Origin: Brachybacterium saurashtrense | Lineage (GTDB): Bacteria; Actinomycetota; Actinomycetes; Actinomycetales; Dermabacteraceae | DNA: 64,000 bases | NCBI RefSeq assembly: GCF_003355475.1 | Contig: NZ_CP031356.1 | Location: 868,001-932,000 of the forward strand | Reading direction: 5' to 3' | Part shown: one piece after another, positions 51,869 to 56,779 of the stretch | Position numbering within the stretch: position 1 is the stretch's first letter | Layout of the letters: every line of letters starts with the position of its first letter | Translations under genes and position numbers: made by a program | The notes under the pieces: generated by a model | Told to the model about the DNA's origin: nothing | Seen by the model: the letters and a program-made list of their open reading frames with translations, nothing else | The model's database searches: none

Positions 51869-52972
51869 GTGATCGATTTCCGCTACCACCTCGTCTCCCT
51901 GATCTCGGTGTTCCTCGCGCTCGCCGTGGGCATCGTGCTGGGCGCCGGTCCGCTGCGCGAGAACCTCGGCGACCAGCTCGCCGGGCAGGTCGAGCAGCTG
52001 CGCACCGAGCAGGAGCAGCTGCGCACCGAGGCGGAGGAGCTCTCCACCCGCCACGACCAGCTCGCCACCTTCATCGCCGAGCTGGGGCCGGATCTCGTGG
52101 ACGGCACGCTGCAGGGGCGGCAGGTCGCGGTGCTCACCGACGACTCCTCCACCCGGCCGGGGATCGAGCGGATGATGTCCCTGCTCGCCGCCGCCGGCGT
52201 GGACAGTCCGCTGCGGGTCACGCTGCAGCCGGCGCTGTGGTCCCCGGACGGGGCCGCGCAGCGCAGCGACGCGCTCGCCGAGATCCACCGCATCGCTCCC
52301 GCCGCGCTCACCGACGATCCGGACGGCGAGCTGACCGATGCCGCGCAGCTGTCCGGGCTGATCCCCACCCTGCTGCACGGCGGGGACGAGCTCACGCCGG
52401 AGCTGCGCTCCCAGCTGTGGGACGTGCTGGTGGAGCAGCAGCTGGTCACCCTCGACGGCACCGTCCCCCCGCAGATCGACGCCGTGGTCTACGCCGCCGC
52501 CGCGCCGGAGGAGCTGGCCGTCGACTCGGAGGACGAGGCCGCCGCGACCGAGCGGGGGCAGAGCCTGCTCGCCTCGCAGACCCATCTGCTCAGCGTGCTC
52601 GCCGAGACCGGGATGCCGGCGGTCGTCTCCGCCGCCACCCCGGACAACGACGCCTCCGCCAGCGTGCTGCGCACCGTCCGCGGCGACCGCGAGTTCGACG
52701 GCCTGTCCACCACGGACCGGCTGCAGGAGGCCGACGGCCCGCTGCTGTCGGTGCTGGCCCTCGTCGAACAGGTGCGAGGCGGCTCGGGCTCCTACGGCAC
52801 CACCGCGGATGCCGAGCACCGACTGCCCGCGCTGCCCGAGACCGAGGGGCTGGAGGAGCAGGCCGGCCAGCAGGATCAGGGCGGCACGCAGGAGCAGGAC
52901 AGCACGGAGGAACAGGGCGGCACGCAGGAGCAGGGCGGCGCGGCGCCGTCCGACGGCGGGGGAGAGGGATGA
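51869..52972 (+). CDS. MctB/SteB family copper-transporter-like membrane protein (DUF3186)
   Basis: 367 residues. It starts DFRYHLVSLISVFLALAVGI, a membrane helix that is the family signature, followed by a coiled coil (residues 34-70, QVEQLRTEQEQLRTEAEELS), a globular extracytoplasmic part, and a Gln/Glu/Gly tail with repeated GGTQEQ units. The family is called MctB (copper efflux) in mycobacteria and SteB, partner of SteA, in corynebacteria. The adjacency to steA favours the division role here. GTG 51869 follows an AGGAGGG site. It overlaps the next gene by 4 bp. Confidence 0.88.
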   Translation: MIDFRYHLVSLISVFLALAVGIVLGAGPLRENLGDQLAGQVEQLRTEQEQLRTEAEELSTRHDQLATFIAELGPDLVDGTLQGRQVAVLTDDSSTRPGIERMMSLLAAAGVDSPLRVTLQPALWSPDGAAQRSDALAEIHRIAPAALTDDPDGELTDAAQLSGLIPTLLHGGDELTPELRSQLWDVLVEQQLVTLDGTVPPQIDAVVYAAAAPEELAVDSEDEAAATERGQSLLASQTHLLSVLAETGMPAVVSAATPDNDASASVLRTVRGDREFDGLSTTDRLQEADGPLLSVLALVEQVRGGSGSYGTTADAEHRLPALPETEGLEEQAGQQDQGGTQEQDSTEEQGGTQEQGGAAPSDGGGEG

Positions 52973-53814
52973 GCCGCGCGCTGCGCGCGGAGCTGCGCCG
53001 CACCAACTTCTCCGGCCGCGAGGTCACCCTCGCCGAAGGCGGTCTGGTGGTCCTCGGGGCCACCGCGCTCGCCGCCCGCACCCGTCGGGCGTCGGATGTC
53101 GCGCTGCTCGCCGGGATCGGTGCGCTCGGACTCGTCGACGATCTCTGGGAGCCGCATCAGCGTCGCGCTGGGACCCCCGTGAGCAAGGGGCTGCGCGGCC
53201 ATCTCGGCGCGCTGCGCCGCGGGAGGCTCACCACCGGGGCGGCCAAGGCGCTCGGCATCCCGCTGCTGGCGCTGGCCGCCGCGGCCGCGGCCCCGCGACC
53301 GCGCGGCGGGGCGATGGTCGTGGCCGATGCGGCGCTCATCGCCGGGTGCGCGAACCTCGCCAACCTGCTCGACCTGCGTCCCGGCCGCGCCCTGAAGGCG
53401 GTGCTGCCCGCCGCGCTGCTGCTCGCCTCCGCGCCGGCCGCCTCGGCGTCCGGTCTCTCTCCGTCCGGTTCCTCTCCCGCCGGCCTCTCGGCCTCCGAGG
53501 CCGCCGCGCGCGAGGACAGCGGGCGCCGTCTCGCGCTCGCTGCCGCGGTGCCGGCGGCCCTCGCGCTGCCCGCCGACCTGCGCGAGCGCGGCATGCTCGG
53601 CGACGCGGGCGCGAACGTGCTGGGGGCGGCGGTCGGCACGGCCGTGAGCCGGCGCCTGCCCGCCGGGGCCCGGCTGAGCGTGCTCGCCGTCGTCGTCGCC
53701 CTCACCCTCGCCAGCGAGCGGGTCTCGTTCAGCGCCGTCATCGACGACACCCCGGCGCTGCGCGCGCTGGACCGTCTGGGCCGACGGCGCGACCCCGCGG
53801 CGAAGGAGCGTTGA
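52969..53814 (+). CDS. MraY/WecA-like polyprenyl-phosphate sugar-1-phosphate transferase family protein, short form
   Basis: 281 residues with several hydrophobic helices. The catalytic landmarks of the MraY/WecA superfamily remain: the DD pair in GLVDDLWEPHQ, KGLRGHLGALRRGRLTTGAAK, the N..NLLDL motif in NLANLLDLRPGRALK, and GMLGDAGANVLG. It is about 80 residues shorter than MraY, lacking the first helices and having an Ala/Ser/Pro-rich stretch (about 150-180) in the middle. If active it would load a sugar phosphate onto undecaprenyl phosphate. It overlaps mctB (ATGA) and murJ (TGATG). Substrate unknown, and it could be a diverged regulator. The family call is from motifs alone. Confidence 0.65.
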   Translation: MSRALRAELRRTNFSGREVTLAEGGLVVLGATALAARTRRASDVALLAGIGALGLVDDLWEPHQRRAGTPVSKGLRGHLGALRRGRLTTGAAKALGIPLLALAAAAAAPRPRGGAMVVADAALIAGCANLANLLDLRPGRALKAVLPAALLLASAPAASASGLSPSGSSPAGLSASEAAAREDSGRRLALAAAVPAALALPADLRERGMLGDAGANVLGAAVGTAVSRRLPAGARLSVLAVVVALTLASERVSFSAVIDDTPALRALDRLGRRRDPAAKER

Positions 53815-55658: not shown

Positions 55659-56779
55659 CCGTGCTGCTGGTGCGTCCCGCGGCGAGCGGCGGCCTGGCCG
55701 CGCACGTCGACCACGAGCTGCGCCTCCTGCGCGAGGCGGGCGCGGCGGTGCGCGAGGCGCCGGTGCGAATCCGGGAGCGGCCCCACCCGCTCGAGGACCT
55801 GCGCACGGTGCGCGCGCTGCGTCGCACGGTGGCCGACACGCCCGGCGCCACCACGGTCCACGCCCACGGCCTGCGGGCCGGCGCGCTCGCGGCGCTCGCG
55901 GTCACCGGCCGGCGGAGGGACCGTCTCGTCGTCACCCTGCACAACCGCACCGTGGGCTCTCGGCCGGTCCGCACCGTCGGCGCCCTGCTGCTGCGCGTGC
56001 TGGCCCGGCGCGCCGACGTGGTGCTCGCCGTCTCCCCGGACCTCGCCTCGGACGCTCGCCGGGCCGGCGCGAGGGACGTGCGCCATGCAGTGATCCCGGC
56101 CCCGCGCACCGCCCCCGGGCCGGACCCGAGCCGCCCGGACCGCCCCGGCGAACGGGCTCCCTCCACCGACGACGCCCCCGCAGAGGACCTGCAGGACCGC
56201 ACGGGTGCCGCGCACGACGAGGCCGGCGCCGCACCCGACGAGGCCGGCGCCGCGACCCTCGAGGTGCTCGTGATCGCGCGCCTCGCCCCGCAGAAGGGAC
56301 TGCACGACCTGCTCGAGGCGGCCCGCCTGCTGCGGCAGAGCGGACCGGTGCGGGTGCGGATCGCCGGCGAGGGACCGCTGCGCGAGGAGCTCGCCGTCCG
56401 GATCGAGGCGGACCGTCTCCCGGTGGAGCTGCTGGGCCGCCGCGAGGACGTCCCCGCCCTGCTCGCCGCGTGCGACGCGGTGGCCTCCGCCGCGCACTGG
56501 GAGGGGCAGCCGGTCGCCCTGCAGGAGGCGCTGCGGGCCGGGGCGGCGATCGTCGCCACGGACGCCGGCGGGACCCGCTGGGTCACCGGCGACGCCGCGT
56601 CCCTGGTGCCCGTGGGGGACGCGGCCGGGCTGGCCCGCGCGCTCGCGGCGCTGCGCGACCCGTCGGCGCGCGACGCGGCGCGGGCCGCGTCCCGACGGCG
56701 TGCCCACGAGCTGCCCGACGACGAGGCGCTGCGCACCCAGCTCGCCGAGGTGCTCGCCCCGGGCGCACGCACCTGGTAG
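55655..56779 (+). CDS. GT4-type glycosyltransferase
   Basis: 374 residues, two Rossmann domains of the GT-B fold. Domain 1 begins [20 protein letters not shown], with [13 protein letters not shown] as the typical HxHG motif. A flexible Pro/Asp/Ala linker with a duplicated DEAGAA unit (56217-56258) joins domain 2: [30 protein letters not shown] and the E-x7-E region [20 protein letters not shown]. Such enzymes use UDP- or GDP-sugars on lipid or polymer acceptors. GTG 55655 overlaps murJ (GTGA), so it is translated with the flippase. Acceptor unknown. Confidence 0.88.

Follow-up and report, generated by a model that had tools for sequence, protein, structure and literature searches.

A separate MraY-fold protein family inherited with the cell-separation regulator SteA points to a candidate polyprenyl-linked glycan pathway beside steAB in Brachybacterium saurashtrense

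Work on SteA and SteB (also named TapA and MctB) comes from Corynebacterium and Mycobacterium, and two reports consulted here disagree on how they act. SteAB was reported to bind the RipA hydrolase and help activate it (PMC12977500), whereas mycobacterial SteA (TapA) was argued to act via MtrAB, with MctB not needed for separation (2025 preprint, PMC12338722). In C. glutamicum, steAB are the last genes of a predicted eight-gene operon, and Clostridia with steAB adjoining spo0A are described in the same report (PMC12977500, in part). Its main text uses none of the words MurJ, MviN, glycosyltransferase or flippase, and neither a linked transferase nor MurJ is mentioned in the portion of PMC7775120 used here, which records transposon hits in C. 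glutamicum steA. We analyzed a 64,000-nucleotide stretch of Brachybacterium saurashtrense DNA (contig NZ_CP031356.1), called the window below, and coordinates are positions in this stretch unless a contig or locus label precedes them. In the window, steA and steB/mctB are followed by overlapping genes for a transferase-like protein of 281 amino acids, for which we use the working label Tfl, a MurJ-family flippase paralogue (MurJ2) and a GT4 glycosyltransferase.

Seven plus-strand genes are arranged head to tail: recN, steA, steB/mctB, tfl, murJ2, the GT4 gene and pyrG. Overlaps were found between recN and steA (4 bases), steB and tfl (4), tfl and murJ2 (1), and murJ2 and the GT4 gene (4). The guanine-plus-cytosine content at the third codon position was 0.91–0.97 in each of the seven frames, which supports their being coding. 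SteA exceeded its NCBIfam equivalog cut-off (NF040608, 500.8 bits against 150), SteB/MctB and MurJ2 exceeded their family cut-offs (PF11382, 238.2 against 25.6; PF03023, 115 against 27.4), and the GT4 protein exceeded those of PF13692 (85.7 against 27), PF00534 (82.5 against 26.4) and PF13579 (54.9 against 29.7). The arrangement described by the first-pass annotation, steA and mctB joined to an overlapping trio of transferase, flippase and GT4 glycosyltransferase, was confirmed by the coordinates, overlaps and profile matches.

The window Tfl gave no Pfam or NCBIfam match at E ≤ 1, and the curated cut-off of PF00953 was likewise not reached, so its kinship to MraY and WecA had to come from profile and fold comparisons. 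A single-sequence search found relatives in 102 of 246 Actinomycetota genomes (E ≤ 0.001); among the 80 named loci described below, the nearest relatives are in Brachybacterium. Two alignments were built: A1, with Tfl and 26 relatives (26 of 29 loci; L017, L021 and L028 omitted), and A2, with the window Tfl and 57 relatives (L057, L060 and L101 lacked a usable start or motif, and a further 20 were omitted from the other 77). PF00953 was matched by 10 of the 27 members of A1 at E ≤ 0.1 (best 3.1e-8), and the A1 profile, searched against all PDB sequences, gave four distinct matches at E ≤ 1, all of them MraY (best E 0.0046). The AlphaFold2 model made from the window protein and its 57 relatives had a mean predicted local distance difference test score (pLDDT) of 93.4 and a predicted template modelling score (pTM) of 0.92. 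When this model was compared with the PDB by Foldseek, the first nine entries were MraY, with E values of only 0.007–0.5; in VIA-align of the Foldseek candidates, the first 17 were all MraY or DPAGT1 (Z 15.2–19.1; root-mean-square deviation 3.1–3.7 over 209–234 residues), and the next entry had a Z of 4.2. Identity to the MraY and DPAGT1 chains was at most 18%.

In most VIA-align rows the model spans MraY from about residue 42–47 to about 340, so the window Tfl lacks the first and last parts of MraY; in many relatives from other genera the N-terminus is longer. By profile and model, Tfl is a separate family in the MraY/WecA/DPAGT1 superfamily, neither a short MraY nor a short WecA. The initial view of a MraY/WecA-like transferase was upheld by the MraY/DPAGT1 fold kept in the model, whereas its wording as a short MraY/WecA-like protein gave way to that of a distinct family without the DGxDGL motif and histidine loop. 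A truncated MraY or WecA was rejected, as these motifs are absent and both types are encoded elsewhere in the genome. The fold is known and the parts are of known kinds; the family itself was previously unclassified.

In both alignments (27 and 58 sequences), residues D57, D58, G77, H78, K93, N129, N132 and D135, together with R140, K143, D203, D212, E250, S253 and D268, are invariant, among others. Residues were paired by global hhalign against a two-row template made of the MraY and WecA-like proteins of this genome. D57-D58 paired with the DD motif, K93 with the following Lys, D135 with the Asp of NxxNxxD and D212 with the Asp of GDxG (E 0.0015 and 0.00033, with a stated probability of only 7 and 17%). 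We take the DD, Lys and third Asp positions to be catalytic in the PNPT superfamily. The possible loss of catalytic aspartates had been raised at the outset; D57, D58, D135 and D212 are kept in the alignments. DGxDGL, which is DGLDGL in the genome's own MraY and WecA-like proteins, is replaced by DLRPGRALK in the window Tfl and by DxxP[GA]R in its relatives. The C-terminal 30 residues of the window Tfl contain no histidine, whereas the histidine-rich C-terminal loop reads QHH in the genome's MraY and HLHH in the WecA-like protein; the aligned Tfl members of A1 and A2 have neither DGxDGL nor this loop. The phosphotransfer centre appears to be kept and the donor side appears to be different, as would fit the use of another nucleotide sugar or an altered function.

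Tfl is inherited with SteA across the actinobacteria. Both proteins were scored in 246 Actinomycetota genomes with 64 family codes (Tfl profile, E ≤ 1e-10; SteA C-terminal domain, E ≤ 0.001). Tfl was found in 100 genomes and SteA in 110 (107 above its cut-off), with both in 95, Tfl only in 5, SteA only in 15 and neither in 131 (Fisher p 5.5e-45). Counted by family code in a hand tally, SteA and Tfl occurred together in 33, Tfl only in 2, SteA only in 3 and neither in 26. The two genes were on the same contig in 89 of the 95 genomes and on different contigs in 6; all 89 same-contig pairs were on the same strand with Tfl downstream of SteA, at distances of 0.9–14.2 kb, and 58 pairs were within 2.7 kb. 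The control WhiB (PF02467), a patchy actinobacterial family found in 119 genomes, had no association with Tfl (both 52, Tfl only 48, WhiB only 67, neither 79; p = 0.37).

Two Tfl relatives, at L130:7807-8559 (genome G128) and G107:C16:10342-11049, stop before the last conserved stretch; these shortened forms occur in genomes without a SteA match and are perhaps relics. One Proteobacteria bin record (L053) groups with Cellulomonadaceae on the Tfl tree, and its contig is probably misplaced.

The company of tfl was surveyed in 80 named loci, the best 80 of at least 587 relatives, a sample that favours near relatives and includes some short contigs. Single-sequence searches found SteA in 78 of them, SteB in 76, a MurJ-like protein in 79, GT4 in 51 and PyrG in 70. 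A strict trio was rejected, because the GT4 and flippase vary: the gene order first described is present here, but the strict tie across the phylum is that of SteA and Tfl. Between SteB and Tfl, several genomes of other classes encode a GT2 and a protein of about 740 amino acids, in some cases with a GT4 as well. One SteAB-linked GT2 matched PF00535 and, below cut-offs, models including polyprenyl-phosphate sugar synthases.

The protein of about 740 amino acids had no Pfam match at E ≤ 0.01 in the four members tested and none better than 0.044 in nine, and a PDB sequence search with a single family member gave nothing useful. A nine-row profile gave 19 weak PDB matches at E ≤ 1 (best E 0.0031), of which 18 were by name sulfatases, phosphoglycerate mutases, phosphonate hydrolases, LtaS or NPP7, and we therefore refer to it as alkaline-phosphatase-like; the remainder of the protein was judged by eye to be multi-spanning. 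The family was found in 98 of the 246 genomes, 92 of them with Tfl (Tfl only 8, alkaline-phosphatase-like only 6, neither 140; by family code in a hand tally 33 with both, 2, 2 and 27). Of these 92 genomes, 35 have the best match no more than 12 kb from Tfl and 10 have it at a long distance along the same contig; in the other 47 the two are on separate contigs, which in fragmented assemblies need not mean that they are unlinked. In B. saurashtrense, the alkaline-phosphatase-like gene and a GT2, the genome's best match to the single SteAB-linked GT2 query from another class, lie side by side about 754 kb from the locus. Such a GT2 was convergent with the unlinked alkaline-phosphatase-like gene and within 2 kb of it in all three same-order genomes fetched. 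The alkaline-phosphatase-like membrane protein and GT2 probably belong to the same pathway as Tfl. On a Candidatus Aquicultor contig (L099:4500-6684), the alkaline-phosphatase-like gene is split in two frames.

A search of the genome for a second murJ and for mraY, as the first-pass annotation had suggested, found both of them and a WecA-like gene. The genome is a single contig of 3.72 Mb. A true MraY (TIGR00445, 313.8 bits against a cut-off of 192.05) is encoded directly after murF (TIGR01143, 317.4 bits, cut-off 288.6), the separate WecA-like gene has WecA as its best NCBIfam match, below cut-off, and the other MurJ-family gene, at C1:3078674-3079942, scores better than MurJ2 (198 against 103 bits). 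A third PF00953 match, below cut-off at C1:1367440, was set aside, its frame being a transporter by eye. MurJ2 as the genome's only MurJ, and with it the concern that it might be the sole lipid II flippase, was rejected given the gene at C1:3078674. With a separate MraY, WecA-like gene and MurJ present, the product of the locus is probably not lipid II, in agreement with the initial suggestion.

MurJ2 was further compared with other MurJ proteins in a tree of 51 rows made by a quick method, with 20 outside MurJs (besides the genome's own) that we chose from the best-scoring matches listed, and with two long branches, one being the genome's other MurJ. The fragment L073 was left out of the tree and of the residue count. 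A branch with a Shimodaira–Hasegawa-like approximate likelihood ratio test (SH-aLRT) value of 98 holds all 21 rows from elsewhere in the genomes and one locus row (L118); the remaining 29 locus rows, MurJ2 included, are outside it. The arginines R18, R24, R52 and R270 of E. coli MurJ are essential. MurJ2 has R35 and R41 at the positions of R18 and R24, and F69 and A357 at those of R52 and R270; these two arginines are shared by the genome's other MurJ, which has W and L at the remaining two positions. Both proteins score below the TIGR01695 equivalog cut-off of 235.55 bits (MurJ2 116.7, the other MurJ 195).

We favour, with moderate confidence, the reading that the locus belongs to a pathway for the assembly and export of a polyprenyl-linked glycan, distinct from peptidoglycan and coupled to SteAB-controlled cell separation. 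Reading each chemical step from family membership, we infer the following order. Tfl would act as a membrane phosphotransferase that places a sugar phosphate onto polyprenyl phosphate at the inner membrane face, and GT4 and/or GT2 (GT2 in other lineages, or from a distant site in this genome) would extend the lipid-linked sugar. MurJ2 would flip the polyprenyl-linked glycan for export, and the alkaline-phosphatase-like membrane protein would probably act on it at the outer face. Since the pathway would work beside SteA and SteB, the controllers of separation, deposition of the glycan would most likely take place at the septum and freshly divided wall, or these sites would sense it, and SteAB, via RipA activation, would tie the pathway to daughter-cell separation. 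Of the original description as an undescribed envelope pathway, the parts and the gene order stand, and the pathway itself is what these parts suggest. No mention of the Tfl family, its tie to SteA or such a pathway was found in literature searches that covered open-licence full texts.

Several findings weigh against this reading. The donor-side DGxDGL and histidine loop are missing, so Tfl may have lost its activity or have another one. Only 51 of the 80 named loci gave a GT4, and 15 genomes carry SteA without Tfl, a pattern that families f7 and f9 show; the Fisher tests take related genomes as independent, and WhiB is the only control family. No invariant histidine is present in nine aligned alkaline-phosphatase-like sequences, so the usual catalysis by this domain is doubtful, and its single-sequence model was poor (pLDDT 44.5) and was not used. 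The GT2 was not near the unlinked alkaline-phosphatase-like gene in 9 of 12 further genomes, two of which (G005 and G101) carry such a GT2 inside the SteAB locus. Four Tfl-positive genomes, G002 (95% complete), G018 (92%), G033 (91%) and G052 (82%), had no MurJ-family match at E ≤ 1e-10, so MurJ2 cannot be needed everywhere. In all three genomes of family f49 (G131, G164 and G185), the sole MurJ match sits inside the locus, between SteA and Tfl on the opposite strand; the one included in the tree falls among MurJs from elsewhere in genomes, so it may serve lipid II there. The genome's other MurJ is also below the equivalog cut-off, so this cut-off does not separate MurJ2 from it. As a side observation, the four genomes without a MurJ match carry Tfl, SteA and the alkaline-phosphatase-like protein, and another flippase would be needed in them.

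Some of these findings would also fit an account in which Tfl, catalytically altered or dead, serves SteAB as a scaffold or senses polyprenyl carriers or lipid II on its behalf, with MurJ2 flipping lipid II at the septum as a second flippase; the locus would then tune peptidoglycan supply in separation and make no new glycan. It would explain the absence of DGxDGL and the histidine loop from the aligned Tfl members, the 29 of 80 named loci in which GT4 was not found and the f49 MurJ inside the locus; the MurJ2 arginines at the R18 and R24 positions and the low equivalog score of the other MurJ agree with it as well. However, a dead enzyme would not usually keep the DD, Lys, NxxNxxD and GDxG positions invariant, as Tfl does, GT2 and sometimes GT4 lie within the locus in other classes, and the alkaline-phosphatase-like protein is co-inherited with Tfl, so we consider this account unlikely, if worth keeping in mind. 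A back-up lipid II route, with MurJ2 and Tfl duplicating MurJ and MraY in some growth conditions, would accord with the MurJ-family membership of MurJ2, the MraY-like fold of Tfl and the shortfall of both MurJs from the equivalog cut-off. It is very improbable given that Tfl lacks the DGxDGL and histidine loop, both of which the genome's own MraY has, that its identity to the compared MraY and DPAGT1 chains is so low, and that a true MraY is present.

The genes could instead serve an ordinary wall polymer, teichuronic-acid-like or another known glycopolymer, and lie near steAB by conserved order only, with no functional tie to separation. The neighbours recN, pyrG and, further up, nadK are also conserved, which suggests a stable stretch of chromosome, and one of the 24 weak NCBIfam hits to the GT4 protein is the teichuronic-acid enzyme TuaC (39 bits against a cut-off of 550). 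However, the presence or absence of SteA agrees with that of Tfl in 226 of the 246 genomes (95 + 131), for which neighbourhood alone is insufficient, and the separate WecA-like gene could start such polymers; this makes an ordinary wall polymer quite unlikely.

A bolder form of the SteAB-coupled glycan pathway, which we regard as doubtful, is that SteA and SteB were ancestrally part of it. Tfl, the sugar transferases, MurJ2 and the alkaline-phosphatase-like protein would place a septal glycan, and SteAB would release or position the hydrolase only once the glycan had arrived; the Corynebacterium/Mycobacterium lineage would have kept the regulator and lost the glycan, with Tfl presumably lost there. 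SteA and SteB have been studied in these two genera; in our sample, 95 of the 110 SteA-positive genomes carry Tfl. If the glycan reading is true, the partner genes seemingly lacking in the model organisms show in what company SteA and SteB evolved. The phylum would then also possess a surface glycan and a MraY-fold enzyme for which our searches of open-licence texts found no assay.

Table 1. Genes of the steAB–tfl locus, its flanking genes, and the unlinked genes proposed to act with it
Gene	Product	Position	Strand	Basis
recN	upstream neighbour, context only	48933-50681	+	frame check; recN homologues upstream in named loci listed
steA	cell-separation regulator, 391 aa	50678-51853	+	GTG start; NF040608 E 2e-150; PF12555 E 2.9e-17
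steB/mctB	SteA partner, 367 aa	51869-52972	+	PF11382 E 2.3e-70
tfl	predicted distant member of the MraY/WecA/DPAGT1 fold superfamily, 281 aa	52969-53814	+	fold model, family alignments, residue pairing
murJ2	MurJ-family flippase paralogue, 614 aa	53814-55658	+	PF03023 115 bits; tree grouping with other locus MurJs
GT4	GT4 glycosyltransferase, 374 aa	55655-56779	+	PF13692, PF00534, PF13579 and PF13439 above cut-offs
pyrG	downstream neighbour, context only	56791-58608	+	PF06418 E 1.9e-122
alkaline-phosphatase-like gene	alkaline-phosphatase-like protein, 669 aa	L158:7015-9024 (C1 ~167.0-169.0 kb)		no Pfam match
GT2	GT2 with long extra C-terminal part	L158 ~5655-7004		convergent with alkaline-phosphatase-like gene

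Compared with SteA/SteB (TapA/MctB) of Corynebacterium and Mycobacterium, the locus is alike in that steA adjoins steB and SteA is over the NCBIfam cut-off; steAB end the operon in C. glutamicum (PMC12977500, in part), whereas the Tfl–MurJ2–GT4 trio follows them here. MurJ2 resembles the MurJ lipid II flippase (PF03023, TIGR01695) in its family profile match and in having arginines at two of the four essential positions, those of R18 and R24. It differs in its score of less than half the equivalog cut-off, which the genome's other MurJ also misses, and in lying across a supported tree branch from the MurJs elsewhere in genomes. The likely outside domain of the alkaline-phosphatase-like protein has a weak profile similarity to the alkaline-phosphatase superfamily, whose extracellular enzymes with membrane parts include LtaS and the eukaryotic PIG-N type; the family described here has no invariant histidine in nine members and no Pfam match over cut-off, and its gene is outside the window. 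With the PNPT superfamily (MraY, WecA, TagO and DPAGT1; PF00953), Tfl appears to share the fold and the DD, Lys, NxxNxxD and GDxG positions. It differs in its length of 281 amino acids, aligned to approximately residues 42–341 of MraY, in having DLRPGRALK in place of DGxDGL and no histidine loop, and in carrying an extra conserved GxxGH...G...K stretch after the DD motif.

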